From a virus: a DNA stretch of 57,200 nt. Below the pieces are notes generated by a model. The model made no database searches. It was not told where the DNA came from and was given only the letters and a program-made list of their open reading frames with translations. The stretch is taken from positions 1-57,200 of IMG/VR virus record IMGVR_UViG_3300032331_001209; one strand, written 5' to 3'. The translations under genes were made by a program, and so were the position numbers. This document shows positions 3,044 through 35,802 of the stretch, one piece after another (within the stretch, counting starts at the first letter, position 1; each line of letters begins with the position of its first letter).

Positions 3044-3086
3044 GGGCATTCCTCTCACATCCCGCAGATATAAAGGGACCAACGAC

Positions 3087-3695
3087 GTGTGGCATGTCTA
3101 CGTCCTCACCAGCACCGTTCGGGCTGTCACCTACGTCGGCTGCACCAATGACGTGGAGCGCCGGGTGCGGCAGCACAACGGAGAACTTTCTGGGGGTGCC
3201 CGGTTCACCCAGCGGTGGCGACCGTGGGAGCTTGGGGCGGTGTACGGGCCGTTTGACGGGAGGGGTGATGCCCAGCGGGCCGAGAGGCTGGTGAAGCGCC
3301 TACGAGGCCGGGAGAGACTGTCAGCGAAGGCCAGCGCGCTCGTCCGCCCGCTCACGCTCCGCGAGGTCGCGATCCCAAGCCGCCCAAGAGGGAGCACCGT
3401 AGGCGGGCTCGATCTCCCGCCAGTGACGGCGACCATTGGGGTTGATCCCCGAGGCTTCGATGCGGGCGAGGAGACCCGCAAACACGTCGGGCACTTCGCT
3501 CCAAGCGGTGACCTCCGTGTAGTCGTGGGCGAAGCGCCGCCCCGTCGCCGTCTCCTCCGCGATCACGAACCAGAGGTGGCCGACCCGCTCGTCGCCATCC
3601 TCCGTGAGGCCGATGGAAACGAGGTTGTCGCGAAGGGCGAAGGTGAAAGAGGGAGCGTTCATGCCCTTCCCACGGAGCCGGGGCGACGGTCGTAA
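3087..3695 (+). CDS. GIY-YIG nuclease domain protein
   Basis: From GTG 3087 (AAAGGGA upstream) the protein reads VWHVYVLTSTVRAVTYVG, then CTNDVERRVRQHNG, GGARFTQRWRPWEL and a later AERLVKRL. This is the GIY-YIG core (VYVL...TYVG, arginine, QHNG, conserved Glu) of the small UPF0213/Slx1-like type. An ATG in frame at 3042 is an alternative start. The domain is complete by about residue 80, but the frame stays open to 3695. From 3321 it lies antisense to a convincing gene, so its last ~125 codons may be read-through with no selected function. It could be a free-standing mobile nuclease; no partner is visible. Confidence 0.72.
   Translation: MWHVYVLTSTVRAVTYVGCTNDVERRVRQHNGELSGGARFTQRWRPWELGAVYGPFDGRGDAQRAERLVKRLRGRERLSAKASALVRPLTLREVAIPSRPRGSTVGGLDLPPVTATIGVDPRGFDAGEETRKHVGHFAPSGDLRVVVGEAPPRRRLLRDHEPEVADPLVAILREADGNEVVAKGEGERGSVHALPTEPGRRS
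3321..3662 (-). CDS. Conserved-looking hypothetical protein (113 aa)
   Basis: The start is taken as ATG 3662, preceded by GGGAAGGGC, giving MNAPSFTFALRDNLVSIGLT and then LWFVIAEETATGRRFAHDYTE. Composition and hydrophobic pattern look like a folded alpha/beta protein, and the C-terminus is charged (DRDLAERERADERAGLR). It resembles small hypothetical proteins common in large phages, but no family was named. It is antisense to the 3' half of the GIY-YIG frame. This strand is favoured as coding because its residues look natural while the opposite frame is arginine- and proline-rich. Confidence 0.7.
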   Translation of the reverse strand: MNAPSFTFALRDNLVSIGLTEDGDERVGHLWFVIAEETATGRRFAHDYTEVTAWSEVPDVFAGLLARIEASGINPNGRRHWREIEPAYGAPSWAAWDRDLAERERADERAGLR

Positions 3696-3810: not shown

Positions 3811-4991
3811 CCGCCGCCCTCCCCCGCCCCGTCGTCCACTACGAGATGATCCGGCGCGACCCGCGCAACCCGCTGCGGGTGTTCCCCGAGGACCTGAAGT
3901 CGAAGATCCTCCACGATCCCTTCAACGAGCGGGGCGACAACCCCCTGCCCGCGCAGACGGTGAGTGCGTACAGCACCACCTACAACATGATGCGTTCGGC
4001 CATCGCCTACGAACGCACGGGCCAACAAGTGGTGGTGCTGGGTCCCCGGATGCAGGAGGCGTTCGCCAACACCTCGTTGTCCGAGGTGAGCCCGGAGCAC
4101 GTTCGGTTCCCGCACTCCTGCTTCTACCTCGCCACGCCGGGAAGCAAGATCAAGCTCTGGGGCGGTAGTGACACGGGCTGGCACCGGGTCGAGGGTGCCT
4201 ACATCATGGAGGAACCCACGGAGCCGGGGGTGCTCTCCATGCTCATCTGGGGCGCGGCCAACGAACGGTCGAAGGCCCCCACGGATGATGCGACGTTCTG
4301 GTTCGCCATGAAGATCGGCAGCGGCGCGACGGTCAACCTCGACAGCGACCTTGAAAGCCGCCTCGACGACAACGAGCTCCGCGAGGGCACCCTGCGGAAC
4401 ATCGAACTGGAATCCGCCGTCACCCGCATGGACCTCGACGCGCGGGTGAACGGGGTTCTGGACAACCGCCACGCGAACATCAGCGACCGGCTCGCGAACA
4501 TCCCTCAATCCGAAGAGCTCGCGCGGGAGGTGAAGGGTCAGGTCAAGGCGTTCCTGCGGATCGCCATCAACACCCTGCTCTACATCAACAGCACATCTTG
4601 CGAGACCAAGACCTCCGACAACGAGGCCCAGCGCAAGGAGCTTGAGCAAGCCCTCGCCCGCAAGAAGCACAAGAACGGCAAGGACGCCAAGAAGCTAGGG
4701 CGCGACCTCGACAACCTGCCCAAGTACCGGGTGACGTGGATCGGCCCCACCATCGAAACAAGCGCGGGAAGTGAAACCGACCTCACGGGCACGCGCTCCG
4801 TGAAGGGCCACGTTCGCCGGGGCCATTGGCACACCTACCGGGTGGGGCCGCGAAAGACCGAGGCTGGCGAGAAGATCGACGCCGCGCTGCGGAAGTCGTC
4901 GCTGAAGTGGATCGCCCCCGTGTGGGTCGGGAGCGGTGCGCCCGAGGACAAGCCCCGTGTCTACGGGGTGAGGGAACCCGTCAGCCCGTGA
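3807..4991 (+). CDS. AcrVA2-like protein
   Basis: This 394-residue protein's C-terminal section carries SVKGHVRRGHWHTYRVGPRK, then SSLKWIAPVWVG. That is the RAHWH.Y..G...L.WI.P pattern I associate with the AcrVA2 family. The preceding hydrophobic stretch LRIAINTLLYINSTSCE followed by a lysine-rich segment also fits that family. The best known member, from Moraxella mobile elements, blocks Cas12a by acting on its nascent N-terminus and mRNA; most distant relatives have no tested activity. Here the gene stands alone on the plus strand behind a GGGCGTAA element, which suggests early expression. It is somewhat longer than the founding member. Anti-CRISPR activity is inference. Confidence 0.68.
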   Translation: MTAALPRPVVHYEMIRRDPRNPLRVFPEDLKSKILHDPFNERGDNPLPAQTVSAYSTTYNMMRSAIAYERTGQQVVVLGPRMQEAFANTSLSEVSPEHVRFPHSCFYLATPGSKIKLWGGSDTGWHRVEGAYIMEEPTEPGVLSMLIWGAANERSKAPTDDATFWFAMKIGSGATVNLDSDLESRLDDNELREGTLRNIELESAVTRMDLDARVNGVLDNRHANISDRLANIPQSEELAREVKGQVKAFLRIAINTLLYINSTSCETKTSDNEAQRKELEQALARKKHKNGKDAKKLGRDLDNLPKYRVTWIGPTIETSAGSETDLTGTRSVKGHVRRGHWHTYRVGPRKTEAGEKIDAALRKSSLKWIAPVWVGSGAPEDKPRVYGVREPVSP

Positions 4992-5385
4992 GCTTCGACA
5001 GGAGGGTGGGCTTGAAGTACAAGTCGCGCTCGACCAGCGGGAGCCCGCGACGGTTCGCGTTCTCCAGTTCCGACAGGGAGATGTAGCCGAGCTCACCACC
5101 ACCGTGGCCGAGGTCCGCCCAGCCAAACATCTCGTCCGCCCCGTCCCACTCGGTGATGTACCAAGTCGCCCCGCTGTACGGGGAGAAGAGCTTGACGTAG
5201 GCGATGGGGTCCGCGACGTTCTCCTGCGCCCGCATCCGAGGGACCTTCACGCCCTTGGGCATGAGGGTGTGCTTCCGCACCCGGTCGAGGGGCGACGCCG
5301 CTTCCTTCAGCAGCGGAAGAAGGTGGGAGCGCAGCCCGGGCGTCTCGTGGGCGAGACGGATCAGCTTGGTGCGAAGGGTGGTCAC
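4981..5385 (-). CDS. Leader-bearing DUF2958 protein
   Basis: The start is GTG 5385 with TAGGAGA eight bases upstream, giving 134 residues. It begins with TTLRTKLIRLAHETPGLR then HLLPLLKEAAS, the shared leader. From about residue 55 it has the DUF2958 pattern: ADPIAYVKLFSPYSGATWYI, ELGYISLSELE and LVERDLYFKPTLLSKL. DUF2958 is widespread on plasmids and conjugative elements with no known reaction. A leader joined to a plasmid-type domain suggests a domain recruited to the sorting system. The 3' end overlaps the convergent AcrVA2-like gene by 11 bases. A late-type promoter lies at 5411-5430. Confidence 0.85.
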   Translation of the reverse strand: MTTLRTKLIRLAHETPGLRSHLLPLLKEAASPLDRVRKHTLMPKGVKVPRMRAQENVADPIAYVKLFSPYSGATWYITEWDGADEMFGWADLGHGGGELGYISLSELENANRRGLPLVERDLYFKPTLLSKLTG

Positions 5386-5410
5386 GGTGAGGTCTCCTAC
5401 GTCTTTCCTT

Positions 5411-5430
5411 TGATAGACCCGGTAGCGGTC
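5411..5430 (-). promoter_or_regulatory. Late-type promoter motif (CTA-N6-CTATC)
   Basis: The minus strand reads CCGCTACCGGGTCTATCAAA about 30 bases before the GTG start at 5385, just after the stop of the gene at 5429. It matches the recurrent bipartite element. Confidence 0.55.
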
Positions 5431-8400
5431 ACGGGTTGATGTCGATGCCGACGAGGCCACGGCACAAGCTCGTCGCGAACGTCGCGGAGACGTTCGCGAA
5501 GTTCAGCGCCTTGCCCGTCACGTTGACCTTGATGATGATCTTCACCAGCACGGGGCACTTGCCCTCGCCGTTGATGAACAGGGCGGCGGGCGACAGGTTC
5601 ACCGTGATGTCCGTGTAATGGATCTGCGACGCGGTGTCGGTACCCGTGGCAGAAGTCACCAAGCACCCGGCACCGTCGAGGGCGAGGTCTTGCTTGGACG
5701 GGCCAGCACCGTCGGGGCGTCCCGCGTCCATCCACGTCGTGAGCCCCGGCACCTTGACCATCACGGCCATGCCCGTGGCTCCCGGCGCGGTGGGGGGCGT
5801 GTACTGGAAGTCGAGGATGTCCACGCCCCACAGGCGGAAGTTCACCGTGGAGGCACCTGCGTTGCCCGCACCCGCGTCGAACGCCCGGTTGTAAGCCCGG
5901 TCATTCACGCACACCGAGTAGTTTAGTCCCGCCGGGGCGTACCCAACAGCATAGTTCGTCTGCGGGTAGATGAGCACCCCGCGCGACGGGAACGGAGAAG
6001 TCAGTCCCTCCGTGTACTCCGGGTTGCGCGGGGGGAGGCCAGCGACTTGGAGCTCGTTGACGGTGACCGTGGCGAGGTTCACCATGTTGACACCTTGGAA
6101 GTACCAGCCGGGATAGTTGGGGTCGCCATTCACGGGCCTCACGGGGACCGAGATGGGCGCGGGACCACTGGGCAGTCCCGGCCCTTGCAGTTGCAAGTTG
6201 TCTGGGAGGCCCAGCGGGAACCAGTTCACCGGGTAGCGGTAGACCTCGTCCAAGAACCGCTCCGATACGTCCTTGGGGGCATTGAGCGTGGCCCGAGTTA
6301 CGTCGTCGGGATTGCCATACGGCACCAGCGCCGCCGTGTTGTCCTCCCGCATTGAGTGGAACAACACCGCCTTGCCCGTGGTATTGGCGAGGGTGAAGCC
6401 TCGCGCGGGAACACCCGTGCCACCAGAGTAGGGGAGGGGATAGCCCGTGGTGCCATCTACGTCGAGGAGCCGCCGCACGAACAGCCGCGCCTTCGCGTCC
6501 GTGGTGAATGCCGGGGTGACCGCATCTCCCGAGAATCGAATCGAGTTCAGCACGTTTCCAGCCGCACTGAAGGTGTACCGAAGGGGGTCGGGACTGGCGG
6601 GTGCAAAGGGGTCGAGGGAGTTCCCAGCTACGTCGGCGTAGCCAAACTCAATCCTCTGGCGGCGGTACTCGCCAAGTCCACCAAAAAACACGGGAAGAGC
6701 CGAGGAGATGCCTCCAGCAGCAGGGTTCTCCGTGCCCTCGTAGCTGAACGGGGAGAGGGACAGGAAGGCCAAGTTCTGATTGAGTGCGTACTTCCGCGAG
6801 TCACCTGCGAGCGTCCCCCCCGTGGGAATCACATCGTGGGTTCGGTAGCTGTCCGCGAAGACGTTGGTCACCTCAAGGTCGAGCACGTCGATCCCGAAAT
6901 TCGGGTCGTTCGCCGTCGTGCGGTCGATGGGAACGTAGTACCCGATGCCCGAGTAGAAGGTCAGTTGACCACCGTTGACGTAGGTCACGTCCAAGGTGAC
7001 GCTGGTGGGGGTGACCATGCCGCTGTTGTCTTCGATGACCTCCGAGCGGTTGACCGGGCTCGCCACCGAGGCCGTGGGCAGGGTAGTGATCTCGACGAGG
7101 TTCTGGAGCACGTCGTAGTTGGGGGTCACGCCCGTCCACTTGACGAGGTTGACCGAGTACACTTGGTCGTTCGTGGGGACTACCCCGTTGACGGCAAAGT
7201 TCTCGAAGTACGCTTCCTTCTTGAAGTGAACGAGGGCGTAGCTGTCGTCGGTGCGAGTGATTGCCGCCCCCGTCGCCAGCACGAAGCGGTGACGGTAGCG
7301 GGCAAGTTGGAAGCCCCAGAAGTCCGCCGCGAAGTCGTCGTAGTCGCCCGCCGGGTCAAGGAAGGGTACGCTGGCGGGTGCGATGGGGCTCGTGAACCGG
7401 GACTTCTCCGTCGCCGGGGTGTAGACCAGCCCCGAAGCCGCCGAGTAGTCCTTGAGGTACGGCAGTCGGTACGCGAGGAAGTTGCCCGCCGTGCCCCCGC
7501 CCCCGGTGCTGAACGAAAATCCCGGCAGGGAGGTGGCCGTTCCGATGGCGTTGTCGGTCGCGCCGAGGATGGGGAGTCCGCCCAAAGTCGTGGCGGGAGA
7601 GAACGTCACCGCCGCCGGGTCCGTGAGGAGCCGCACCTGTCCCGCTGCGGGGTTGAAGAACGGGTCTTCACCTGTCGTGGTCGAGAGCCCCGTGTGGATC
7701 TCATCGAGGTTGTATTGCCCCGCCGCACGGCCCGCGAAGTTGTACGGGCTCGCAGGAGCATCCGTGCCGCCCGCCCCATTCACAATGGTGAAGTCGCCCG
7801 GTGCAGTCCCGAGGTCGAGGAGGCTGATGCTGTTGCCGACGGTCCCCGTCGCGACGGGGATGATCTTCACGGTGCCGCCGCCCGTGGGCAGTGCCGCGAT
7901 GAGGGCCGGGAAGTACAGGTTGTTGAGGGCGAGGGCGAAGCTCTCCGAGGTCAAGATGTTCGACCCGAGAACTTGGAACTCGTAGGCGTTCGTCGGAGCA
8001 ACCGCCGTCGCCGTGAACGTCACGGGCGCGGCAGGCCCGCCCGGGAGTCCCGACAGGTCCACGAGAATCTGGTACGGGGCAGCGGGGTTGGTGTTGTTCG
8101 TGATGAACGCCGAGGCGCGAGTGCCGCCCGAGACCTCCGTGAAGATCCCCCCCGGCTCGCCGTCGCACCCGTTGTCGAGAATTCCCTTGCCGAGCAGGAC
8201 CGCCGCGACAACGACGTTCTGCACGTCGGCCACGCTCGCCGCCGCCGAGGGCTGCGGGTTCTCGCCCGAGGGCCACTTCACGAGGGCGAGGACTCCACGG
8301 TCAGCGGGAGACACGATCCCCGAGACGACCGCTGCGGGGTCTGCCACGGCGGACATGATGTTCCACGACGGGAATCCAATGGTGGACCCTCCCACGCTGA

Positions 8401-14324: not shown

Positions 14325-14696
14325 TCACCTTGGGGTCATGCCACTGGGAACTTCCCAGCCTCGCACGAAGTCCTCCCAGTAACCGGGTTGCCACCGAGCG
14401 ATGTAAGGCAGAGCTTTCGTGACGAGCTCCTTCCGTGCGTCCGCCTCTGAGGCAAACAGAACGGGGGTGTCGTCTCTCGAAAAATCCATCGAGTGCTTCC
14501 AGCCATCCCCCGTCCAGAGAGTCTCCCCCTTCCGAGTGACCAGCTTGATCGCGTAGGTGCGGTCAGCCTTCGACCACAGGGAGACGCTGGGGTTGGTCGT
14601 GACTGCCGCCGTCTTGAGGAGGGGTAGGAGATGTGGACGGAGAGCCGGATTGGCATGGGCCAACCGGATGACCTTGGATCGAAGATTGTCGCTCAC
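14325..14696 (-). CDS. Leader-bearing protein of unknown function (123 aa)
   Basis: Starting at GTG 14696 with GAGG five bases upstream, it opens with LRSKVIRLAHANPALR then HLLPLLKTAAV, the shared leader. The remaining ~85 residues (AIKLVTRKGETLWTGDGWKH, RKELVTKALPYIARWQPGYW) are unrecognised. It lies in the tail operon with a late-type promoter at 14714-14736 and another late promoter immediately downstream, so it is a self-contained late cassette. Packaging with the virion is inferred from the leader. Confidence 0.8.
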   Translation of the reverse strand: MSDNLRSKVIRLAHANPALRPHLLPLLKTAAVTTNPSVSLWSKADRTYAIKLVTRKGETLWTGDGWKHSMDFSRDDTPVLFASEADARKELVTKALPYIARWQPGYWEDFVRGWEVPSGMTPR

Positions 14697-23777: not shown

Positions 23778-24877
23778 CAGTAGTTCCCCAGAGACAGGCG
23801 GTTGGTTCCCGGCAACGCGAACGTCCCCGGGGCCGTGTACACGATGGAAATGGTCACGGGTTCAGACGAGTAGTTCCGCACGTCCACCTCGATGAGGAAG
23901 GTCGTGGGATCACTGGGAGATTGTGCCACGGCGATGTTGTCCACGGAGAAAAGACGCTCCTTGGCCGTGACCCGCTGGTACTTGGACTGGGCGTTCTGGA
24001 GGTTCTGGAGCGTCGTGAGGGCTTGGTTGACCGACTGCTTCAGCCCGATGGCCGTACCGCCCAGCACCTTGCTACCAATGCTGGCCGCGAGGTTCGACCC
24101 GTACCAAGGCTGGTAGATGTTCGACCCGAGCTCCGTGAGGATCATCTTGAGGCACATCTGGTAGAGGAGATTCTCGTCCTCGACCACCAGTGCCTCCCCC
24201 TGCGCGTCGAAACGGAAGTCGTTCTCGACCTCCGTGGTGAGGCATCGCAGGCACAGGTTCGGAGCCACGGGATACGACACCGTGAAGTACACACCCTGCT
24301 TGACAGGGGCGTTGAACCCGATGTAGTAGCCGAGGGAGTCCACGGCGTCTTCGGGGTTGACGACGCTGCGAGAGTAGAGCCTCCACGGGGGGATCACCGT
24401 TTTGCCACGGTCGCCGCTCTGCTGGTCGAAGCCCAGCGCCTCCAGCGCCGAGCCAGACAGTTGGACCTTGGAGGTCGGGCCGGGGTCCGCCGTGTCCGTG
24501 ATGACGAGGTACCCGTTGGGAGACGTGACCGTCACCAACCCCTTCACCGCCGACGTGATGGCAGCGGACACCTGCGCCGCCGACAGGTACCCCGGCGAGA
24601 AGTTCACCGCCGCCGTCCCAACCCCCGTGGTCACCACCAAGGTCCGCGTGGCGACGGTGACCTTGTAGGGCTCGCGGCGGTACGACTTCACCGAGGCAGG
24701 GGTGACCAGCCCCGTGTAGGGAGAGACAGGCGTGCCGTCGTTCGCCCGCACCACCACCAGCGTCGGTCCTGCGATGGGCTTGGACGTGTACAGCGTGCGT
24801 CGGTCATCCCCGAGGGTGACCCTCTCCTCACCGATGATGTGAGGGCAGGGATAAGCCAGACAAATATCACGAGACAC
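23777..24877 (-). CDS. gp25-like baseplate wedge protein with N-terminal extension
   Basis: The chosen start is GTG 24877, with AGGAGA seven bases upstream, giving 366 residues. About residues 215-345 show the GPW/gp25 pattern: VEDENLLYQMCLKMILTELG, NIYQPWYGSNLAASIG and late strands FLIEVDVRNY. gp25 starts sheath polymerisation from the baseplate in T4. The N-terminal ~200 residues are beta-rich and carry a segment, VSAAITSAVKGLVTV, that may be a distant copy of the small domain repeated in the tail proteins. Two cysteines in LCLRCL are unusual here. The gene directly precedes baseplate J and partly overlaps the homing endonuclease stop. Confidence 0.82.
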   Translation of the reverse strand: MSRDICLAYPCPHIIGEERVTLGDDRRTLYTSKPIAGPTLVVVRANDGTPVSPYTGLVTPASVKSYRREPYKVTVATRTLVVTTGVGTAAVNFSPGYLSAAQVSAAITSAVKGLVTVTSPNGYLVITDTADPGPTSKVQLSGSALEALGFDQQSGDRGKTVIPPWRLYSRSVVNPEDAVDSLGYYIGFNAPVKQGVYFTVSYPVAPNLCLRCLTTEVENDFRFDAQGEALVVEDENLLYQMCLKMILTELGSNIYQPWYGSNLAASIGSKVLGGTAIGLKQSVNQALTTLQNLQNAQSKYQRVTAKERLFSVDNIAVAQSPSDPTTFLIEVDVRNYSSEPVTISIVYTAPGTFALPGTNRLSLGNY

Positions 24878-25664
24878 GGGGTTTCTCCTGCGCCTTTCGC
24901 GCTTGGGCTTCCCGTCGATCCTGCGTCCACGGAACCCCTTTTCGGGCACGAGACATAGCGGCCTTGTGCTCGTCGGAGAGGGTTCGGCCCAGCATCTTGA
25001 TGCGTTGCTCCTCTGGGAAGGGCTTACCTTTCTTGGCGTTGCTAACTTTCAACCGCACGTCATCCGTGCGGGGCACCCCCCGTCGAGCCTCCGCAGCGGC
25101 AATACGGGCGGGTGATTGGGGCTTGCCTTTGAGGGCTTTGCTGATGGCCTCACGCTTTTCCGGGGGCATAGGCCCCCGGGGAATACCCTTCTGTGCCGCA
25201 CTGATCTTGGCCTTGGTTTCGCTTGAGTGAGGACCCCTTTTCTTGCCGAGGTGAGCCGCCTTCATCTTGGACAGAGTATCGGGGGAACGATTGCGAGACG
25301 CTTCACCGATTTTTCGACGGGCCTCCTCATCAGGCGTGTACCCGTGGAAGCTACCAGCCGTAGGGAGAGTGTTCAGCCCACGGGTCGCCGCTTGGAAAGT
25401 GTCGAGGTAATGCTGCTCCCTAGACTCTAGGTCGGAGGGGTCGGTGACCTCTTCCAGAACCTCAAACGAAAAATGGCACCCGCCGTACAGGTCCCATGCC
25501 TTCTGAAGTTTCGGAGGACCACTTCCCTCGCTCAACGATTTCAAGTGGTCGTACCACCTCCCCTTGATTCTCCTAGACTGACCGACGTACACACGTCCGT
25601 CAGCCTTGCATCGAATGATGTAAATGCCCATTTTCGGGGGGTTGGGATGGACCGTGGGGGACAT
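24867..25664 (-). CDS. GIY-YIG homing endonuclease with NUMOD3 repeats
   Basis: Residues 12-100 are a GIY-YIG catalytic domain: MGIYIIRCKADGRVYVGQS, then RWYDHLKSL and LESREQHYLDTF. Residues 105-260 hold repeated NUMOD3-type DNA-binding modules, with SPDTLSKMKAAHLGKKRG, SETKAKISAAQKG, PPEKREAISKALKGK and SDEHKAAMSRARKG. This is the classic Seg-like, free-standing homing endonuclease layout. It lies between a virion gene and the baseplate gp25-like gene, and its stop overlaps the start of the latter, so it is a mobile insert placed without breaking the operon. The start at 25664 is weak; ATG 25631 is the alternative. Confidence 0.92.
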   Translation of the reverse strand: MSPTVHPNPPKMGIYIIRCKADGRVYVGQSRRIKGRWYDHLKSLSEGSGPPKLQKAWDLYGGCHFSFEVLEEVTDPSDLESREQHYLDTFQAATRGLNTLPTAGSFHGYTPDEEARRKIGEASRNRSPDTLSKMKAAHLGKKRGPHSSETKAKISAAQKGIPRGPMPPEKREAISKALKGKPQSPARIAAAEARRGVPRTDDVRLKVSNAKKGKPFPEEQRIKMLGRTLSDEHKAAMSRARKGVPWTQDRREAQARKAQEKPRVS

Positions 25665-27491: not shown

Positions 27492-28046
27492 ATGCCACTC
27501 ACCGTTATCGTCGGTCCAATGTTCTCGGAAAAGTCCACCACCTTGCACCGTTACGTCTCGCGGGCGTTGCGGGCCAAGAAGCGCGTGGACGTGGTCGTGC
27601 CCGTGGTGGACACCCGCAGCAAGGGGCAGGTGGTCACCCACTCCGGGCTCACCTTGGAGTCACTGGGCGTCACACCCCGCACGGCGGCGAGCTCCGCAGA
27701 CCTGTACCGGGCGATGCCCTCCCCCGCCCCGGACCTCATGGTGATCGAGGAGGCCCAGTTCTTCGACATCGACCTCCCGCTGTGGGTCGGGAAGCTGGTC
27801 GAACAGGGCATCCACGTCGTCGCGGCGGGGCTCGATCTCACCAGCGAGGGCGGACCCTTCGGCCCGATGGGGCACCTCATGTGCCTCGCGGACCGGGTCG
27901 AGAAGCTCACGGCGATCTGCGCGTGCGGCGCGGAGGCCACCCGGACGAAGTGCCGGGTCAAGAAGGACGGGGATGTGCTGGTGGGGGGCGGCGGGGAGTA
28001 CGTCCCGGCGTGTTTGAAGTGCTGGCGGAAGCACCTCAAGCGATAG
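27492..28046 (+). CDS. tdk: Thymidine kinase (TK1 type)
   Basis: This 184-residue protein phosphorylates thymidine with ATP in the dTTP salvage pathway. It shows the TK1 layout: P-loop GPMFSEKST (residues 8-16), VVPVVDTRS (37-43), the catalytic glutamate in VIEEAQFFDID (84-94), AAGLDLTSEGGPFG, and a zinc-bound lasso with C143, C145, C174 and C177 ending in GGEYVPACLKCW. The P-loop has Glu at position 13 where the family has Gly (SGK(S/T)), an unusual change that may weaken ATP binding. AGGA lies before the ATG. The gene is on the opposite strand to its neighbours and converges with the gene at 28048. Confidence 0.93.
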   Translation: MPLTVIVGPMFSEKSTTLHRYVSRALRAKKRVDVVVPVVDTRSKGQVVTHSGLTLESLGVTPRTAASSADLYRAMPSPAPDLMVIEEAQFFDIDLPLWVGKLVEQGIHVVAAGLDLTSEGGPFGPMGHLMCLADRVEKLTAICACGAEATRTKCRVKKDGDVLVGGGGEYVPACLKCWRKHLKR

Positions 28047-28047
28047 A

Positions 28048-28527
28048 TCAGCTTCCAGCCAGATAATCGCGCAGCCGATCACCCACCAACTTGGCAATGT
28101 CCGCACCCAGTTTCGGGACGGACACATGAGACCAGTAGTTGTTGAAGTACTTCAGCGGGACTTTCACCGCGACGTTCTTCCCGCCACGCCCAAAAGTGTA
28201 CTCCACCGTGTAGTTCTCTGTGGTGTCAACATCGACCCAGATGTAGTCGTTGCCTTTGGGGTCGTCAGAGAAGTACCCCACGATCTCCAACTTCAGCGAG
28301 TTGGGGATGAGGTTCAGGGCGTCAAACCTGAGAACCCCCCTGAACCCTGCATCCAATTGGTTGAGGATGGCGTTGCCAAGGTCGCGGGTCAGATTCTTTT
28401 TGGCACCGTAGAGAGAATCGGCGTCGGGTGCTGCCGTCTTGGTGAGGAGGGGCATGAGGTGCGAACGGAGCTCCGGGTTGGTGTGAGCCAGCCGGATGAT
28501 CTTGGAACGGAGTGCTTGGTCGCTCAT
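28048..28527 (-). CDS. Leader-bearing protein of unknown function (159 aa)
   Basis: From ATG 28527 it opens with ALRSKIIRLAHTNPELR then HLMPLLTKTAA, the shared leader. The remainder (DADSLYGAKKNLTRDLGNAI, RFDALNLIPNSLKLEIVGYF, YFNNYWSHVSVPKLGADIAK) is a compact alpha/beta protein with no named family. A late-type promoter sits at 28555-28575. It is the fourth protein with the leader and directly follows the phosphatidylserine-decarboxylase-like gene, tying the leader to that group of enzymes. Confidence 0.8.
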   Translation of the reverse strand: MSDQALRSKIIRLAHTNPELRSHLMPLLTKTAAPDADSLYGAKKNLTRDLGNAILNQLDAGFRGVLRFDALNLIPNSLKLEIVGYFSDDPKGNDYIWVDVDTTENYTVEYTFGRGGKNVAVKVPLKYFNNYWSHVSVPKLGADIAKLVGDRLRDYLAGS

Positions 28528-28554
28528 TGAGATGGAACCTTTTCTTACGGGGTG

Positions 28555-28575
28555 GGGGGGATAGTCGGTCAAACG
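28555..28575 (-). promoter_or_regulatory. Late-type promoter motif (TTT-N6-CTATC)
   Basis: The minus strand contains CGTTTGACCGACTATCCCCC, overlapping the stop of the upstream gene and leading to the ATG at 28527. Confidence 0.55.
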
Positions 28576-31472
28576 AGGTTCGGCCAACCGTCGAGGGCGG
28601 CGAGGATCTTCTTGGCGGCGGTCTCCCCGTCCGTGACCTTCACGGGCTTGGCGGGGGCGTTCTCGTTCGTGCGGTCGATCACCGTGAGGTAGACCGAGGT
28701 ATCTCCCAGCGTGCTCTGGGTCAGCAAGAACTGCTGGTACTCGGGGAGGCCCGCCTCGACGTGCTCGGGCAGCGGGTACGCCGTGAGGTACACGTCGAAC
28801 ACCATCGCGTCCACGGTGCGGTCGCCCAGCTTGGCCGGGGCGAAGTGCGGGTGGACGGTGACCGACACGCTGTTCGGGTAGTTCAAGGCTCCTCGCACCG
28901 TCTCCCGCGCCTCGGTGGAGATCAGTCGGAGATCCTTGGGCATGATCTTCTGCGAGAGCGCCGAGAGCACCTCCCGCGCCTGTGCCCGGAACGCCTCAAA
29001 CCGCTCGTAGAGCATCTGGGCGTCCCGCAGGGCCATGCTGACCGTGGCGTCGCCGGGGTGCTGGACGAGGTAGGTGCGGCAGTGGGCGATGACGCGCTCG
29101 GCGTGTCGCATCCCATGCTCAGACTTGGCGAACACCTCCGTCTGCGAGTGCAGGGTGAGCGCCGCGATGCGCCCGACGATGGGCATCGGCACCGTCTCCG
29201 CGTAGGTGTCCAGCACCGCTTGGATGTCCGACGCCAGTGCCTCCAGCGTCTCCACGTCCCCGGCGATGACCTCCAGCGGATCGGGGGCCTTGGTGTGCTG
29301 GGCAACGACACGACGGACAGACGCAGTTCTCATGAGAGGCTCCTCGCAGGACGCAGGAGGCGGGTCTTGCCGCCCCTTCCAGAACACGGTGACGACTTCG
29401 ACGCGCCCGTTGTCCGTGGCGAATACCACCTTCAGCCGGGTCTTGGGGTCCACCCACTCGATCTTGTCCTGCGACAAGAGGGCCTCGTACTCACGAGGGT
29501 CTCGTTGCTGGAGCCCCTGCGCGTAGGCGATGAACGAGTTGAGGGCTCCCGCCACGTCCCTCACCGTGATGGACCTGTAGTCCATACGGAACTGGGCGTG
29601 GGGCAGGATCGTGAAGCTCTTGAAGCCAGAGCCCGATTCGGTGGTCAGCGGGTAGACCTTCCGGGCGTCTTGGTTCGTGAGGTCGCCCGTCTCGGCATCC
29701 TCGACGAGGTCTTCCCGCAGCCCCGGGTTGCGGATGGCGTTGTTGATGCGCTCCACCACCTTGCAAGGGCCACCGTTGACTCCCAAGGGAGGCGAGAGGT
29801 CCGCCGTCTTGCGTGCGGCGGCGAAGTCCGCCGATGCCTTCAAGAGAGACTCCGACAGGGGGCTGAACACGGGGGCGAACCCCGACTCGATCACTTCCAT
29901 GCGGAGCGCCCCGAGGACACCCGCAAGCCTCCTCGTGAAGGCGGACAGGTCCCCCTCTTGGTACGCATCCTCGGCCAGATCCAGCGCGTGGCCCGAAGCC
30001 GAGAACTTTCCGGGCTTGAGTTGCGGAGGGGAGAATGCGAGCGCGTCGTTGACCAGACCCCCGGCCCGCTGAAGCTCCCCCGGGGGCACCCCAAGGGACT
30101 TGGACAGGAACAGGAGCTCCTTGAGAAACCGTGTGAGGGCCGTGGCGAACTTGTCAGATGTCACTCGGGCCTTCTGTACGGCCAAGAAGTTCAGCGCGAG
30201 CGGTGAAAACTCTACTCCGACACTGGCCGTCTTCTTGGCCTTCTCGTCGGCGGTCTCCATCTGCTTCTTGACCTTCTCGGCCCACGCTCGTCCGGGGTCG
30301 CCACCCCAGATCAACCACGAGACGTTGCCCTTGTCGTTCCAAGGCTCGCCCTTGTGCTCGGGGGCGACGCCCTTGTTCTTCTCGTGGCGGGAGAAGAACG
30401 CCGTCATCTGCTTGATGGTGTCGGGCGAGATATTGTCCCGGTTCTTGAGGTTCACGGCCCGCTGGACGCCACTGCCGATGCCCTGCTTCGCGGCTTCCGC
30501 AGGGGTGAGCCCGCCCTTCTGCGAGGGCGATGCCTTCTCCCGGTACTCCAAGCCCTTCTCGGCGGCGTCAGCGACCGACTGTGGGGGCTTGAAGTCGATG
30601 TGCTTGTACTTCTCGGGCACGTCGGCGGTGACCCGTCTGGACGCCATTTTCACAGGTTCGACCCTCGGGTAGCGGAACTCCCAGTGACCGGGGTGATCCG
30701 GGTGGACTGCGATGGGGTCACCGATGAACACCGGGTGGTCGGTCTCGTCGAACACGAAGTCGAGGTCGGGCGGATAGACCACGAGGATCATCGACCCCCA
30801 CTCAAAACGGCCCACCTCGTCCACGGCCCGCACCGTGTCACCCACCGCGACGCTGCACTGGAAGTCTTGGATGGTCTTCTCACCGATGCAGCACAGGAAC
30901 ACCCGCCCGAAGCGCGTGCCAAGCTGGATGACCGTGACGTTGTTCCGCCCGAAAGGGTCCGTGTCCGAGGCGAAGCGGTAGACGCCCTGCACGACGCCAC
31001 CGATGGGTGCATAGACCCGGTGGCAGTCGTGGAGGTACAGGCTCATCTTGATGAACTTGTGCCCGCCGACGGACGGCTCCAAGAACTTCAGAGCCTCAAG
31101 GACGTTCGCCCTGCCCTGCTTCAGTTCGATCAGACCGTCGCCCACCCTTCCCGTGTACTCGATCTTGCCCTCGGCGGGAGAGCACAGGTCGGCGTGCTGG
31201 GCCATCTTCCTCGACGCCAGAAGCGTCTCCGGGGTGGGCGTCCGAAGGAACCAATCGTGGAAGGTGCGGTAGTCCGTGGGGAAGAACACGGAGCGCGGGA
31301 CGGTGTAGCCGCCCTTGGCGCTCATCCAATCCGCCAGACGGTTGAAGTCGATGCCCACGCTGTCCCGGCGAGCCCCCAAGTCACGGAGGTTGCGGAACAC
31401 CTCTTGGACGAGCTCGTGAGAGACGAGGTCCGGGTTCTGATACAGGGGCGTGAGCGGGTCGCGCATGGTCAC
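28569..31472 (-). CDS. Multidomain protein: phosphatidylserine-decarboxylase-like domain plus phage-specific and DUF4258-like domains
   Basis: This is a 967-residue protein from GTG 31472 (ATG 31466 also possible). Residues 60-235 match phosphatidylserine decarboxylase: SVFFPTDYRTFHDWFLR, CSPAEGKIEY, YLHDCHRVYAPIGGVVQGVY, DPFGRNNVTVIQL and GRFEWGSMILVVYP. The last holds the Gly-Ser self-cleavage pair (226-227) that makes the pyruvoyl cofactor. Two usual catalytic positions look altered: Asp is Glu101 in PAEG, and the second His of HRVH is Tyr154. Residues 330-400 (GIGSGVQRAVNLKN, MTAFFSRHEKNKG, WLIWGGDPGRAWAEKV) are a domain common in large-phage virion proteins. Residues 615-700 (ILPHAQFRMDYRSITVRDV, VVFATDNGRVEVVTVFW) resemble DUF4258/BrnT-type toxins. 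KTA/ASR junctions at 274-279, 413-418, 554-558 and 715-719 separate the domains. Confidence 0.78.
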   Translation of the reverse strand: MTMRDPLTPLYQNPDLVSHELVQEVFRNLRDLGARRDSVGIDFNRLADWMSAKGGYTVPRSVFFPTDYRTFHDWFLRTPTPETLLASRKMAQHADLCSPAEGKIEYTGRVGDGLIELKQGRANVLEALKFLEPSVGGHKFIKMSLYLHDCHRVYAPIGGVVQGVYRFASDTDPFGRNNVTVIQLGTRFGRVFLCCIGEKTIQDFQCSVAVGDTVRAVDEVGRFEWGSMILVVYPPDLDFVFDETDHPVFIGDPIAVHPDHPGHWEFRYPRVEPVKMASRRVTADVPEKYKHIDFKPPQSVADAAEKGLEYREKASPSQKGGLTPAEAAKQGIGSGVQRAVNLKNRDNISPDTIKQMTAFFSRHEKNKGVAPEHKGEPWNDKGNVSWLIWGGDPGRAWAEKVKKQMETADEKAKKTASVGVEFSPLALNFLAVQKARVTSDKFATALTRFLKELLFLSKSLGVPPGELQRAGGLVNDALAFSPPQLKPGKFSASGHALDLAEDAYQEGDLSAFTRRLAGVLGALRMEVIESGFAPVFSPLSESLLKASADFAAARKTADLSPPLGVNGGPCKVVERINNAIRNPGLREDLVEDAETGDLTNQDARKVYPLTTESGSGFKSFTILPHAQFRMDYRSITVRDVAGALNSFIAYAQGLQQRDPREYEALLSQDKIEWVDPKTRLKVVFATDNGRVEVVTVFWKGRQDPPPASCEEPLMRTASVRRVVAQHTKAPDPLEVIAGDVETLEALASDIQAVLDTYAETVPMPIVGRIAALTLHSQTEVFAKSEHGMRHAERVIAHCRTYLVQHPGDATVSMALRDAQMLYERFEAFRAQAREVLSALSQKIMPKDLRLISTEARETVRGALNYPNSVSVTVHPHFAPAKLGDRTVDAMVFDVYLTAYPLPEHVEAGLPEYQQFLLTQSTLGDTSVYLTVIDRTNENAPAKPVKVTDGETAAKKILAALDGWPNLV

Positions 31473-31543
31473 GTCTTGCCCACGGCGTCGATGAGCGCAC
31501 GGGCGGTCTCGGGAGTAGCACCGATGGAGGTGTAGATGGGCAT
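31469..31543 (-). CDS. 24-residue micro-ORF MPIYTSIGATPETARALIDAVGKT (N-terminal remnant of a spike gene?)
   Basis: An ATG at 31543 preceded by AGGAGAGGA opens a 24-codon frame whose TGA overlaps the GTG of the 967-residue gene (GTGACC). Its start, MPIYTSIGATPETA, resembles the N-terminus of the spike at 32882 (MPIFAAVGATEQTA). It may be a broken copy of that gene or a short translated leader coupling ribosomes to the big gene. A late-type promoter lies just upstream at 31565-31583. Confidence 0.55.
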   Translation of the reverse strand: MPIYTSIGATPETARALIDAVGKT

Positions 31544-31555: not shown

Positions 31556-32530
31556 CTAGTAGCGGCGCGATAGGCGGGCAAACTTCTGGGCGACGCGGGT
31601 TGGGTTGGGGGCGAGGTACCGGGAGGCCACTCGGGAGGCGAGCTTCACGGGCTCGACGCCCTTGCGGACGAGACCCGTCTTGGGGCTGACCTCGACCACT
31701 TCCTTGCCGCCGTTGCGGTAGCTGAACACCCGCACGGCGATCTTGGGCTTGTAGCCCTCGGGCAGGCGGTCCTCCAGCCCCCCGTAGTCCATCTTGCCGG
31801 GGATGACGTAGAAGTCCAACTCTCGGTCGGTGAGGTTCATCACCATCTGCGAGGTCGTCGCCATCGTGTCCACGTCCCGCACAGGGTCATTTTGCGTGCG
31901 CGGCCCCTCGGAGCGGTTCTTCATGAGGTCCGGGCCAAGGTCCGTGGGAGCCTTGCTCTGACGGAGGATCTGGGTGGCCTTCTCCTTCCGCGCCGCCGAG
32001 GACAGGTAGCCCTCACCGTCGGTGTAGCCCGTCCCGCCCGTGTCGCGCCCGTGGTTGGTGCGGACGTGAATCTCGCTCCCGTCCAAAGGCTTGATGATGC
32101 AGTCGCCGTTGATGAGCTCGACGGAGAACGCCCGGTTGGGGTCGCTCACGAACGAGTGACCTTCCAGCCCACCAAGGTGGGAGCACAGCGAGTCGATGGC
32201 TTCCTTGACCGTCTCGCACGCGAGAGCCTTGAGGATGCGTGCCCCGTCGAGGGACTTGCCCTTCTTGCCCTTCTTGTCCTCGACGGCCTTGCCCATGCCC
32301 TCGGCCTCGTCGAGGCCCACGGCGAGCGCCGCGTTGGCGATCCCGATGCCGTACTCGTTGATGCCCTCGCACCAGCCCGTGACGCTGTCGCGCATGTACG
32401 CGACCTCGACACCGTCGAGAAGTTCTCGGACGATGGTCACCCTCGGGATGTACTTGCGGTCGCGGTTCTTGAGAAGCGACCGCTTCCCGTCCCACACACC
32501 AGCAGCAATGACGCAAGCGAGTCTGTCCAT
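31556..32530 (-). CDS. Ntn-hydrolase, acyl-CoA:6-APA acyltransferase / C45-like
   Basis: From ATG 32530 it has 324 residues. The N-terminus MDRLACVIAAGVWDGKRSLL then KNRDRKY has the Ntn-hydrolase pattern of a near-N-terminal Cys (C6), an open strand and N-R-(D/N). Then come GWCEGINEYGIGIANAAL (typical GxNExGL.v.N) and VRTNHGRD, the TNH motif of acyltransferase/C45-type members. Such enzymes become active when the bond before the Cys is cleaved and hydrolyse or transfer acyl-amide groups. The C-terminus PVKLASRVASRYLAPN is a short motif also hinted at in its neighbours. It sits in the group of probably virion-linked enzymes. The substrate is unknown; action on a cell-envelope amide is a guess. 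Confidence 0.72.
   Translation of the reverse strand: MDRLACVIAAGVWDGKRSLLKNRDRKYIPRVTIVRELLDGVEVAYMRDSVTGWCEGINEYGIGIANAALAVGLDEAEGMGKAVEDKKGKKGKSLDGARILKALACETVKEAIDSLCSHLGGLEGHSFVSDPNRAFSVELINGDCIIKPLDGSEIHVRTNHGRDTGGTGYTDGEGYLSSAARKEKATQILRQSKAPTDLGPDLMKNRSEGPRTQNDPVRDVDTMATTSQMVMNLTDRELDFYVIPGKMDYGGLEDRLPEGYKPKIAVRVFSYRNGGKEVVEVSPKTGLVRKGVEPVKLASRVASRYLAPNPTRVAQKFARLSRRY
31565..31583 (-). promoter_or_regulatory. Late-type promoter motif (TTT-N6-CTATC) inside the 3' end of the Ntn-hydrolase gene
   Basis: The minus strand contains GTTTGCCCGCCTATCGCGC. It overlaps the codons for FARLSRR at the end of the upstream gene and precedes the micro-ORF and the 967-residue gene. Confidence 0.5.
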
Positions 32531-32556
32531 AGGGGGATTGGTCCTACGGGCGCGGA

Positions 32557-32575
32557 GTGATAGAACGGGAAACGC
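32557..32575 (-). promoter_or_regulatory. Late-type promoter motif (TTT-N6-CTATC)
   Basis: The minus strand contains GCGTTTCCCGTTCTATCAC about 27 bases before the ATG at 32530. Its upstream TTT lies within the right arm of the terminator at 32569-32606. Confidence 0.55.
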
Positions 32576-32606
32576 CCCAGACGGGGTGACCCATCCGGGG
32601 CGTTTC
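32569..32606 (-). terminator. Terminator-like hairpin after the gene at 32629
   Basis: GAAACGCCCC and GGGGCGTTTC form a perfect 10-bp stem with an 18-base loop that can itself partly pair. It lies in the 99-base gap between two minus-strand genes. A weak run (TTTCCCGTTC) follows instead of a U-tract, so it may be a terminator, a processing site, or both. It overlaps a promoter motif, so transcription could stop and restart here. Confidence 0.6.
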
Positions 32607-32628
32607 TCACGGGCACGGGGATGTTGGA

Positions 32629-32862
32629 TCAGCCCTCGTAGCCAGCGGGCTTGGCCTTCGCGGCGGCGAGGCTCGCGTCGCGCGCGGCTTGATCCTTCGT
32701 GACGGTCTTGCCCTTGACCGCCGGGGTCTCCTGTCCCCACTCCGACACGAACACCAGAACGGTGCCCACGGGCTGGGTCTTGGGGTCCACGGGGGTCTTG
32801 GCGGCGTCGCCCATCACATAGACGAACGGGGTGGCCTTCTCACGGGGGGTGCGGGTAGTCAT
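32629..32862 (-). CDS. Small Ala/Lys-rich protein (77 aa)
   Basis: The ATG at 32862 gives MTTRTPREKATPFVYVMGDA, then VGTVLVFVSEWGQETPAVKG and a basic Ala-rich tail (AARDASLAAAKAKPAGYEG). It follows the spike gene after 20 bases and ends before a strong hairpin. Size and place suggest a small virion decoration or accessory protein, but no family is known. Confidence 0.6.
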   Translation of the reverse strand: MTTRTPREKATPFVYVMGDAAKTPVDPKTQPVGTVLVFVSEWGQETPAVKGKTVTKDQAARDASLAAAKAKPAGYEG

Positions 32863-32881
32863 GGTCGGGGGTCTCCTTGGA

Positions 32882-33982
32882 TCAGGGGGTGTGCCCGCCC
32901 GCGACACACGCGGCGGCGAGGCGGTCGAGGGCTTCGTGGACGCTCATCTGGGTGCTGCCGCCCCAATCCGACGAGTTGTCCGGGTAGTAGGTGGTGAAGC
33001 TCTGGTACTGGTCCCACTCCCACACATCTTGGTTCTCACGGACGTAGGTGCCGGGGGCCGGGAACGTGGCGAGGTAGCCGGGGCCGAAGAACGTGTCGTT
33101 GCCGATCCAGCAGGGCGACCCGTCCGTCTGCACGACGGCGCTGCCAAACACGAAGAAGGCGTACCAGCGGATCGACGTGCCGTTCTTCAGACGCAGGTAC
33201 AGGGTGGCGTTCGCGTAAACCGCGAAGCTACCAAACTCGTAGTTGCCGAAGCGGAAGTCACAGTTGTCGAGCGTGAAGGTCGTGTCCGTGCCCTCGTAGG
33301 TGCGGCACTGGAACACCGACGTGTCGAGGACCACGTCCTGCTCGTCGCTAATCGGGTCACCGGGCGCGGCGTTCCCGTCCCAGCCCAGATTGCGAATCGT
33401 GAGGGTCGAAGTCTCGGCGGACACCGAGTCGATCTCGAACGCGCCCGCGTTGTCGATGATGACGAGCACGCCCGCGACGAAGCCGTTGACGAAGTTGTCC
33501 ACGGTCACGGTGGCGGTATCGCCCACGTTGGGCATCGTGAAGGCGGACGTTGTGTACGTCGCCGTCCCGCTTCCTTGCCCGCGGAAGAAAATGTTCTTGA
33601 GGCCCGCGCACCCGTAGATGTGGCACGGCCACTCGTAGCCGCCGTCCGCTTCAAGGTACTGGAGGTACTGGTAGGGGCGGAAGCTGTAGTCGTAGTCGTC
33701 CCACCCGTAGGACACGCCCACGATGGTGGTGTTGTTGAGGTGCCACTCACCCGGTGGGAGGTAGATGTCTTCCTGCGACGGGTTGAAGATGTAGATGCTG
33801 GTCTCGGGTGCGGAGCTCGATTGCACCGCCGCCACGGCCTCGCCCCACGTCGCCACCGCCCCGGTGGGGAGGGGATCGCTGAAGGGAGCCCACACGATGG
33901 TGGGGACAGAGCGGTTCGGGGCCGCGCCGACTTGGTTGAGCGCCGTCTGTTCGGTCGCTCCGACTGCTGCGAAGATGGGCAT
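32882..33982 (-). CDS. Putative tail spike / beta-helix virion protein (366 aa)
   Basis: The sequence is rich in aromatic residues, Asn and short beta strands (SIYIFNPSQEDIYLPPGEWH, FVAGVLVIIDNAGAFEIDSV, TLYLRLKNGTSIRWYAFFVF), as in right-handed beta-helix spikes. One stretch, AFTMPNVGDTATVTVDNFV then LGWDGNAAPGDPI, is a small module common in phage tail proteins. The start ATG 33982 has AGGAGAA upstream. No catalytic residues of a lyase or hydrolase can be assigned. Its N-terminus resembles the 24-residue frame at 31469. Confidence 0.68.
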   Translation of the reverse strand: MPIFAAVGATEQTALNQVGAAPNRSVPTIVWAPFSDPLPTGAVATWGEAVAAVQSSSAPETSIYIFNPSQEDIYLPPGEWHLNNTTIVGVSYGWDDYDYSFRPYQYLQYLEADGGYEWPCHIYGCAGLKNIFFRGQGSGTATYTTSAFTMPNVGDTATVTVDNFVNGFVAGVLVIIDNAGAFEIDSVSAETSTLTIRNLGWDGNAAPGDPISDEQDVVLDTSVFQCRTYEGTDTTFTLDNCDFRFGNYEFGSFAVYANATLYLRLKNGTSIRWYAFFVFGSAVVQTDGSPCWIGNDTFFGPGYLATFPAPGTYVRENQDVWEWDQYQSFTTYYPDNSSDWGGSTQMSVHEALDRLAAACVAGGHTP

Positions 33983-34104
33983 GAAGTTCTCCTGCGGTTG
34001 TCTGGCGACCTAACGCCGAGGTTGAAAGCTAACGCTTGGCCGGGGCACAACCCCGGACAGGGCCGACCTACCTAGCTAGAGACGCCGCTATAGGCGGGAA
34101 ACCG
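33983..34104 (-). promoter_or_regulatory. Long 5' leader of the spike gene with promoter motif and hairpin
   Basis: This 122-base gap carries a late-type element at 34087-34104 (minus strand GCGGTTTCCCGCCTATAGC), then about 80 bases containing a 6-bp GC hairpin (CCGGGG...CCCCGG at 34040-34056) and finally AGGAGAA before the ATG at 33982. The leader is longer than those of other late genes, so the hairpin may protect the message or tune translation. Confidence 0.5.
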
Positions 34105-35802
34105 CTAGTCCCCGTCGTCCTTGAACGTCGGCGTGTTCACGGGCTTCTTGCCCTTGGGGGCTTTCTCCTGCACCTTCATCTTCTCGCGGGCCTTGTCGGC
34201 GCGCTCCTTCTTGTCCATGTCGTGAGCCTTTGGCCGCGCCATGCACTTGAAGGGGGTCTTGCCGCCCCGGGTGAGGTCTTTCCATTCGGGGTCATCCGTG
34301 AGCGCCCCGCACGGGCCGAGGATGTCACCGGGCTGGTAGGTCTTCTTGGTGCCGTCCTCGCGGGTGATCGTGCGCTTCACGGGTGAGATCGCCACCCAAT
34401 CTCCCCACTGCGCCTCACCCGGTGCCTTGGACGCGCCCTGACCGTGGCCGCTGAACCACTCGTCTAGGCCCCCGTGCCCCACGTCTTTCTTGGCCTTGCC
34501 CTTGGCGGACAGGTAGAGGGAGGCCACGCGCACGGCACTCGCGAAACGGCCCCGGTCCTTCTTGGCGAGGAACGCCTTGAACCGCTCGATCTGATCGCGA
34601 GTCATGTCCCGGCCTAGAACGAAGTGCGCGAACACCTCCGCGAAGTCCTCCTCCGTGGTCGTACCCCCGTACTCCGACACGGCGGCGACTTCTTTGTAGA
34701 AGCTGTCGAATCGGGCGCGGTCCCCCGCATCCATGAACTTGAAGTAGTAGCGATGACCTAGCTCGTGGATGAGGAGCTCCACCATGAAAGGCTTGGGCTC
34801 CAAGTACACCACGACGTGGTCGGGACCGATCATGTAGTGAGCGCCAACGCCAAAGTGTTTGCCCAGCGGATTCTCCCCGCCGCACTTCGGGCATCCGACG
34901 AAGATCGGGCCGTACCAGAGGTCACCAAAGCCCTTCTGGTCGAGCAGCGCCTTGGCCTTCTGGAAGTAGGGGATGTAGTCGGACAGACCCCGGGGGTCAC
35001 CGGGATCGGGACGGTTGATGAGGTGTCGGTCAGGCTCGCCGTCGTACACGAGCTTGACCTTCCCGATGGTGTACTCCAGCAGGATCTCTTCGCTCTCAAA
35101 GGGCTGGTCGTCCGCGTACTTGCCCAGAAACGCCGTGATCGCCCGCAGGAGCTTGCCCGACAGGGTGTCCTCGACCTTGGCGAGCGTTTCCTTCGCTACG
35201 TCCTCGTAGCCCTTCAGCGCCGCGCCGAATGGGTCGGCGGGATTGACCCGCTCGTAGAAGCCCAGCACGGACCACTGTGGACCTAGCCGCGCGTCCATGT
35301 CGTAGGTCCGCGTGCCCGGTGTCATCGCGTCCAGTGTGTGCTGGAACTTCGACAGGTCGTCGTCGAGGAGTTCTCGCGCGGCCTTGAGCTCGTCGCGGAC
35401 CTTGACCTTCAGTCTCTCGATGATGCTGCCTTCGTACCCCTCACCGCGAGGCAGGAGCCCCTTCGTGAAGAACAGGTACTCCCAGAAACGATTGAGGTCT
35501 TTGTCGCGCAGGGTCTTGAAATGCGCGATGAGGTCTGCCAGCGAGGCGTAGCGGGGCTTGGGCGCGAAGGTCTTCTTGACCCATGCCCGTAGCCCCTTCA
35601 CCAGTGCGGGGTCGATCTGGGTGGTATTCCCGGCTGTCTTCTCCCACCCGCCGCCTTCGTCCTTGTAGAGGGCGAGGGCGTGCCCGACCGCGTAGGCAGA
35701 CGGCCACTTGGTGTAGCGAGACTTCGCTACATCTTGGCACTTCTCCCAGAGCTTGGGATTCGTGGGCTCGTTGTCGCCGTCTGCTAGGCGGGGGTTCATC
35801 AC
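34105..35802 (-). CDS. HELGH zinc metalloprotease-like protein with DUF6321-type C-terminus (565 aa)
   Basis: Residues 14-50 (NPKLWEKCQDVAKSRYTKWP, AYAVGHALALYK) are a small helical module frequent in large-phage proteins. WEKTAGN follows at 53-59. Residues 305-400 contain CPKCGGEN and the zincin site LLIHELGHRYYF (HELGH 346-350), with a likely third ligand in TTTEEDFAEVFAHF (E384 or E385). AVRVASLYLSAKG (423-435) precedes a C-terminal domain with GGLDEWFSGHG, QWGDWVAISPVKRTI and CGALTDDPEWK, which I place in DUF6321. A basic lysine-rich tail ends the protein. Candidate roles are virion protein maturation or attack on host proteins. The start is GTG 35802 or ATG 35799. Confidence 0.75.
   Translation of the reverse strand: MMNPRLADGDNEPTNPKLWEKCQDVAKSRYTKWPSAYAVGHALALYKDEGGGWEKTAGNTTQIDPALVKGLRAWVKKTFAPKPRYASLADLIAHFKTLRDKDLNRFWEYLFFTKGLLPRGEGYEGSIIERLKVKVRDELKAARELLDDDLSKFQHTLDAMTPGTRTYDMDARLGPQWSVLGFYERVNPADPFGAALKGYEDVAKETLAKVEDTLSGKLLRAITAFLGKYADDQPFESEEILLEYTIGKVKLVYDGEPDRHLINRPDPGDPRGLSDYIPYFQKAKALLDQKGFGDLWYGPIFVGCPKCGGENPLGKHFGVGAHYMIGPDHVVVYLEPKPFMVELLIHELGHRYYFKFMDAGDRARFDSFYKEVAAVSEYGGTTTEEDFAEVFAHFVLGRDMTRDQIERFKAFLAKKDRGRFASAVRVASLYLSAKGKAKKDVGHGGLDEWFSGHGQGASKAPGEAQWGDWVAISPVKRTITREDGTKKTYQPGDILGPCGALTDDPEWKDLTRGGKTPFKCMARPKAHDMDKKERADKAREKMKVQEKAPKGKKPVNTPTFKDDGD

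Follow-up and report, generated by a model that had tools for sequence, protein, structure and literature searches.

What is a domain of the phosphatidylserine decarboxylase (PSD) family doing at the front of a long phage protein, and on which substrate, and in which cell, might it act? PSD makes the membrane lipid phosphatidylethanolamine. The window, by which is meant the whole stretch of DNA analysed here, is a 57.2-kb virus contig (IMGVR_UViG_3300032331_001209), and it encodes a 967-aa protein of five modules, with the PSD domain in its N-terminal third.

Phage setting and module joints

The gene and its immediate neighbours are arranged as follows.

31556..32740, minus strand: upstream gene, a C45/AAT-like autoproteolytic acyltransferase with VKLASRVASRYL at its C-terminus
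28569..31472, minus strand: gene of the 967-aa multi-module protein, a single ORF with GTG at 31472 as its first codon
28048..28587, minus strand: next gene, with the LRSKIIRLAHTNPELRSHLMPLLTKTAA tag, common to many proteins of these phages, at its N-terminus

Translation probably starts at the ATG at 31466 rather than at the GTG at 31472, because the sister genes have their start codon at the matching position. The sister genes lie in two virus contigs, G001 (105 kb) and G002 (266 kb), both of which may be fragments; they have their gene order in common with the window, and protein identity is mostly 60–90 % (86–88 % for the DNA polymerase). A sequence-only reading of the locus had called the domain phage-encoded, and this holds, because the phage genes around it keep their order in both sisters. 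The PSD segment also has phage-like codon use (CAI 0.725, the range for other genes being 0.55–0.81), and its GC content resembles that of the rest of the phage. Several other features of the neighbourhood can be recorded. In both sisters, the upstream acyltransferase is joined to a poly(A)-polymerase/CCA-adding module (L002 7793–11662; L003 7160–9277), but in the window it is not. A 24-aa ORF, MPIYTSIGATPETARALIDAVGKT (31470–31543, minus), is apparently what a deletion has left of a tail-collar-like gene, whose counterpart in L003 (9237–10004) is long. A gene for a GIY-YIG/NUMOD3 homing endonuclease (24867–25664, minus) neighbours baseplate genes; the opposite strand encodes a thymidine kinase (27492–28046, plus).

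Downstream of the PSD domain, the chain is divided as follows.

30639..30650, minus strand: KMAS joint (residues 275–278) in the linker EPVKMASR
30231..30626, minus strand: module of residues 283–414, matching phrog_2859
29805..30224, minus strand: module of residues ~417–556, absent from both sisters and bounded by KTAS (30222–30233) and KTAD (29799–29810)
29325..29804, minus strand: module of residues 557–716, with a sub-threshold DUF4258 match, conserved in the sisters
28572..29324, minus strand: C-terminal module of residues 717–967, following an RTAS joint, conserved in the sisters

The PSD profile PF02666 has no match in G001 or G002. Window and sister DNA both have GACGTGACCATG at the start codon; in the window the PSD domain then follows, while in both sisters the homologous module begins MNHRRTRTADVPKKYEHIDFKPP. 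Homology with the sisters resumes behind the PSD domain at the T of RVTADVPEKY (T282, base 30629), within a TAD peptide, such that the domain stands in frame directly after the start codon of a gene that exists without it in the sisters. Our reading of these three contigs is that the domain would have been gained in the window lineage rather than lost in the sisters. The second window-only module behaves similarly, in that sister homology ends at 30225 and restarts at 29810, at KTAS and KTAD, and the module fills the space between two KTA joints where the sisters have one. Modules are thus swapped at recurrent [KR][TM]A[SD] joints. The 967 aa contain four [KR][TM]A[ASGD] joints where 0.23 would be expected (Poisson 1e-4), for a motif that was picked after inspection; proteome-wide, [KR]TA is enriched 1.9-fold in G002 (28 versus 14.9 expected) and not enriched in G001 (5 versus 4.7). 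A peptide similar to the linker behind the PSD domain (EPVKMASR) occurs towards the end of the upstream acyltransferase, as EPVKLASR, and it is there that the sisters carry the poly(A)-polymerase/CCA-adding module. An assembly chimera, in which a bacterial PSD gene was joined to a phage gene, might be suspected in that the arrangement is found on one contig only, but it is highly improbable: the frame is open through the joint, codon use is phage-like, the start-codon context is conserved, and no high-identity bacterial gene was found.

Elsewhere in the window, the protein encoded at 34105–35802 (compared with L003 3782–4387) follows this pattern too: between its joints GGGWKKTA and RVASRYL lies a stretch of ~360 residues that is absent from G002 and gives weak metallopeptidase matches (HELGH). 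A 1.9-kb stretch (window 32626–34543; L003 3949–5866) has 95.8 % DNA identity, including 375 bp at 100 %, with flanks at 68–87 %, and is, judged from these identities, a recent exchange between phages.

Family, fold and catalytic residues

The sites discussed in this section are listed below.

30750..31259, minus strand: core of the PSD-family domain, residues 72–241, defined by the Pfam profile PF02666
31167..31178, minus strand: PAEG, residues 99–102, with E101 at the position of Escherichia coli D90
31011..31031, minus strand: HDCHRVY, residues 148–154, in which D149 (D142) and H151 (H144) are kept and Y154 stands at H147
30792..30797, minus strand: Gly226-Ser227, where self-cleavage is predicted and the pyruvoyl group would arise, corresponding to E. 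coli G253-S254

Residues ~66–260 of the protein belong to the PSD family. The Pfam scan placed the region in PF02666 with 56.8 bits (E=3.2e-15), the curated cut-off being 22, and E was 3.9e-18 when the window's own record was searched. The equivalog cut-offs of NCBIfam were missed widely, with NF003685 best at 29.4 bits versus 183 and TIGR00163 at 20.1 versus 111.75. An AlphaFold model of residues 1–274 (mean pLDDT 79, pTM 0.79) has the PSD fold on superposition: its best PDB match is E. coli PSD (Z 13.5 by VIA, 3.3 Å over 188 residues), followed by an Aspergillus arginine decarboxylase (9jer, Z 11.8) and PsiD (8zia, Z 11.7), and the top PDB matches of a Foldseek search (E 2.4e-5) are all PSDs or decarboxylases of the PSD fold. 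EIIA-glucose and M23 domains appear lower down, with part of the sandwich in common. The fold result depends in part on the profile result, because bacterial PSDs were in the model's alignment. Profile, alignment and predicted fold thus agree in placing the N-terminal ~240 residues where the sequence-only reading had placed them.

Individual residues were compared in an alignment of the phage protein to E. coli PSD together with 44 homologues from bacteria. The Gly-Ser pair, which lies within GRFEWGSM, is invariant in all 42 sequences of alignment A4. In E. coli numbering, D142, H144, R145, P149, G253 and S254 are kept, and the changes are D90E, Y143C, H147Y and T255M; in addition, the strand VGAxxV is altered to CIGEKTIQ. 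The substitutions in PAEG and CHRVY are therefore present as first described, as is the Gly-Ser pair, and the phrase 'altered catalytic positions' stands as a comparison with E. coli; the impairment that it implied is not supported, the changes falling at D90 and H147 with H144, D142 and S254 kept. In E. coli PSD, D142, H144, G253 and S254 form the autocleavage set, H144 being indispensable for decarboxylation and serving as the chief base in self-cleavage, whereas single mutants at H147 or D90 still process, and D90 and D142 are mutually redundant (PMC7952604). The dispensability of H147 is not universal, as the Plasmodium knowlesi enzyme is reported to use the equivalent residue (PMC7952604). 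The phage protein has both the essential His and a supporting Asp (D90 or D142), aligned as H151 and D149. Natural variation is also seen at the changed sites: a marine gammaproteobacterial PSD (L058) has an identical DCHRVY, and in PsiD-like relatives Glu occupies the D90 position and the H147 site holds Asn or His. Because E. coli single mutants still process and such variants exist, the changed residues sit at tolerant positions, and the idea that they mark a dead enzyme was ruled out on the same two grounds. The PSD domain is divergent yet apparently intact. A pseudoenzyme, its fold kept for binding or as a self-cleavage processing device without decarboxylation, would fit the shortened active-site loop, the altered VGAxxV strand and the want of close relatives; it is nevertheless improbable, since the residues most needed for self-cleavage and decarboxylation, H144 above all, are kept.

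Candidate substrates, partner module and proposed role

More telling than the substituted residues is the loss of two larger elements. A loop of roughly a dozen residues that bears S166 is absent in the phage, where the Y137 position is ambiguous, and the third N-terminal helix, hydrophobic in E. coli, is missing, with the N-terminal helices partly kept. Mean hydrophobicity of the phage N-terminal helices is -0.31 and -0.09, versus +0.42 for E. coli helix 3. In E. coli PSD, Y137 and S166 contact the phosphate; S166A alone does not lower activity, and Y137F keeps about half (PMC7952604). The substrate is therefore uncertain, with the phosphate-contact loop missing and the membrane-anchor region weak. 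Together these two features would point somewhat away from the standard substrate, yet phosphatidylserine stays a possible one in light of the two mutants. The sequence-only reading had offered two roles, editing of host membrane lipid or use of the fold to bind phosphatidylserine, and both would be candidates only.

Two rival explanations turn on this substrate. According to the first, the protein is a non-packaged auxiliary metabolic enzyme that converts host phosphatidylserine into phosphatidylethanolamine during infection. Family and fold, the kept equivalents of H144 and S254 and, by eye, the likeness of phage FNRLADWMSAK in the N-terminal helix region to the E. coli membrane helix LTRLAGWGASK all speak for it. 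The absent S166 loop and the unclear Y137 speak against it, albeit tempered by the harmless S166A (PMC7952604), as do the less hydrophobic N-terminal helices and the fusion itself, a plain metabolic gene not being expected to be joined to a head-associated module; overall, this is a possible though unlikely role. The second rival is a soluble amino acid or amine decarboxylase akin to PsiD (tryptophan) or the Aspergillus arginine decarboxylase, which might, for example, supply polyamine precursors. Those two enzymes, as 8zia and 9jer, give the third- and second-best folds, Glu at the D90 position is common to PsiD-like proteins, and, among phage pyruvoyl decarboxylases that have a different fold, a switch to arginine or ornithine is known (PMC9992855, PMC10407285). 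Set against this are D142, kept in the phage and not in PsiD-like sequences, and the lack of any recognised polyamine gene nearby, so that we hold it to be rather unlikely.

The module that follows the PSD domain suggests a further role. The phrog_2859 module is modelled as an all-helical unit (pLDDT 86), for which a fold search of the PDB gave a best Z of 3.7, a value that is not proof of a new fold. The module's fusion partners in other phages include the S78 prohead protease (L004 and L006) and other head proteases (L132 and L013, the latter of XkdF type). Among 32 long relatives from IMG/VR, S78 is present in 11, portal in five and a DUF2213 region, named head maturation protease in PHROGs, in one. 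Head genes are fused to the module or lie within 4 kb of it in at least 43 of 80 phrog_2859 loci, a raw count without a random-locus baseline. Chance would hardly account for the module being joined outright to head proteins of two different kinds. The 57.2-kb window contains no capsid/portal/protease head cluster, and in G002 the homologous gene is ~80 kb from one. That cluster comprises portal, a 2H-phosphoesterase/topoisomerase IB polyprotein, head maturation protease and major head protein, and thus long multi-enzyme proteins exist in the head region of these phages.

Three side observations concern the same cluster and contig. At L112 13334–16804, a 1156-aa protein with a 2H phosphoesterase and a eukaryote-type topoisomerase IB is encoded between the portal and head protease genes. 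Intein-like domains occur at L112 18071–20000 and elsewhere in G002, and one splits the putative head maturation protease gene. The peptide IKTAA (residue 20) of the G002 major capsid protein was considered as a KTA cleavage site and dropped, as it presumably belongs to the N-terminal helix that is normal for that family.

Sequence and model supply the family, the fold, the kept core residues, the modular insertion and the partner module's association with head genes. The reading that we favour, plausible though short of probable, is that the domain is a self-cleaving pyruvoyl decarboxylase, an exchangeable cargo of a head-associated chain that is carried in the virion and acts in the newly infected cell. 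The first ~270 residues, as a divergent PSD-family enzyme, would probably cut themselves at Gly226-Ser227, making the pyruvoyl cofactor; the phrog_2859 module would bring the chain into the growing head; the [KR][TM]A[SD] joints would be cut there by the prohead protease; and the decarboxylase would travel as virion cargo, be ejected and act on phosphatidylserine or another amino-acid-like substrate. The fullest form of this proposal, that the phage head-packs a self-activating decarboxylase as a swappable polyprotein cassette and ejects it, altering the membrane lipid or amine pool at the start of infection, is speculative and, taken as a whole, unlikely. A PSD domain coupled to a head-associated module would connect the chemistry of membrane lipids or amines with delivery by the particle, and the joint-and-cassette layout would offer a sequence-only route to packaged cargo enzymes in uncultured large phages.

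A second recurrent element, the tag LRxKxIRLAHxxPxLRxHLxPxL followed by a KTA-like peptide, is found on four unrelated window proteins.

2321–3082, minus strand: tagged protein
4981–5460, minus strand: tagged protein
14325–14696, minus strand: tagged protein
28048–28587, minus strand: tagged protein, the gene next to the PSD gene

In the form LRSKLIRLAHxxPxLRPHLLPLLKTAA, it occurs in 18 ORFs over the window and sisters, mostly at the N-terminus and in a few cases internally. The tag resembles a head-targeting or pro-peptide tag and fits the cargo model; it is absent from the PSD protein and present on the next gene.

Rarity among viruses and comparison with known systems

Searches of IMG/VR, INPHARED and ~85,000 species genomes (the last with query-specific patterns) returned no close relative of the PSD domain. 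A looser pattern retrieved ordinary proteobacterial PSDs only (20–28 % identity), and the best identity of any relative found was about 37 %, over short stretches, in 284 genomes of one phylum (the one to which a Myxococcales MAG belongs). When a bacterial PSD was the query against INPHARED, most of the matches seem to lie in bacterial contigs or in the flanks of prophages. Among 2.9 million viral contigs, query-specific and general-PSD patterns, both restrictive, found two cases only: L212, with a PSD of bacterial type close to the end of a contig, and L213. The latter (2539–3528 of IMGVR 3300005201_000160) has a PSD-family protein that stands alone (PF02666, E=2e-39); its contig is phage-type and unrelated, and the protein's gene is neighboured by glycosyltransferase, PAPS-reductase-like and ParB-like genes. 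From these searches, PSD-family genes in phages look very rare. In the open-licence papers searched, phage PSD appeared only as a Paenibacillus larvae prophage-list annotation, plus the algal viruses, and none of them described a PSD domain that is an exchangeable module joined to a head-associated one. PSD-family proteins were already known in cells, giant viruses and at least one other phage-type contig (L213).

E. coli Psd (7cnw, 6l06), at about 17–27 % identity by alignment, shares with the phage protein the fold over 188 residues, the YRTF segment, the D-x-H-R motif and the Gly-Ser pair. Unlike it, the phage protein has E for D90, Y for H147 and M for T255, lacks the S166 loop and the hydrophobic N-terminal helix, and forms one chain with phage modules. 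PsiD-type L-tryptophan decarboxylases (8x4q, 8zia) and the Aspergillus arginine decarboxylase (9jer) have the pyruvoyl fold in common with the phage, at about 13–18 % identity, and bacterial PsiD-like proteins also have Glu at the D90 position and no fixed H147; however, the phage retains D142. An N-terminal PF12588 domain is a feature of PsiD-type tryptophan decarboxylases, and the phage protein has no match to it in a Pfam scan with E up to 1. Giant viruses (Indivirus, Yasminevirus, Mimivirus LCMiAC02) encode PSD-family proteins too, although these are viruses of eukaryotes and identity is 11–12 % by structural alignment. We know of no head-module fusion among giant or algal virus PSDs. The algal PSDs likewise come from contigs of viruses of eukaryotes (PMC11633385). 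L213 resembles the phage PSD in having PF02666 among phage-type genes and differs in being a single-domain protein of 329 aa with canonical D90 and H147, at about 20 % identity. For the proposed packaging, the T4 internal proteins and Alt and the SPN3US ejection proteins, head-delivered cargo with a removable tag trimmed by the prohead protease (PMC7411985), serve as a working model only, as tag, joint sequence and cargo differ in the present phage. The association with head-assembly modules that characterizes head-packaged ejection proteins is seen for the phage chain through the phrog_2859 fusions of other phages.
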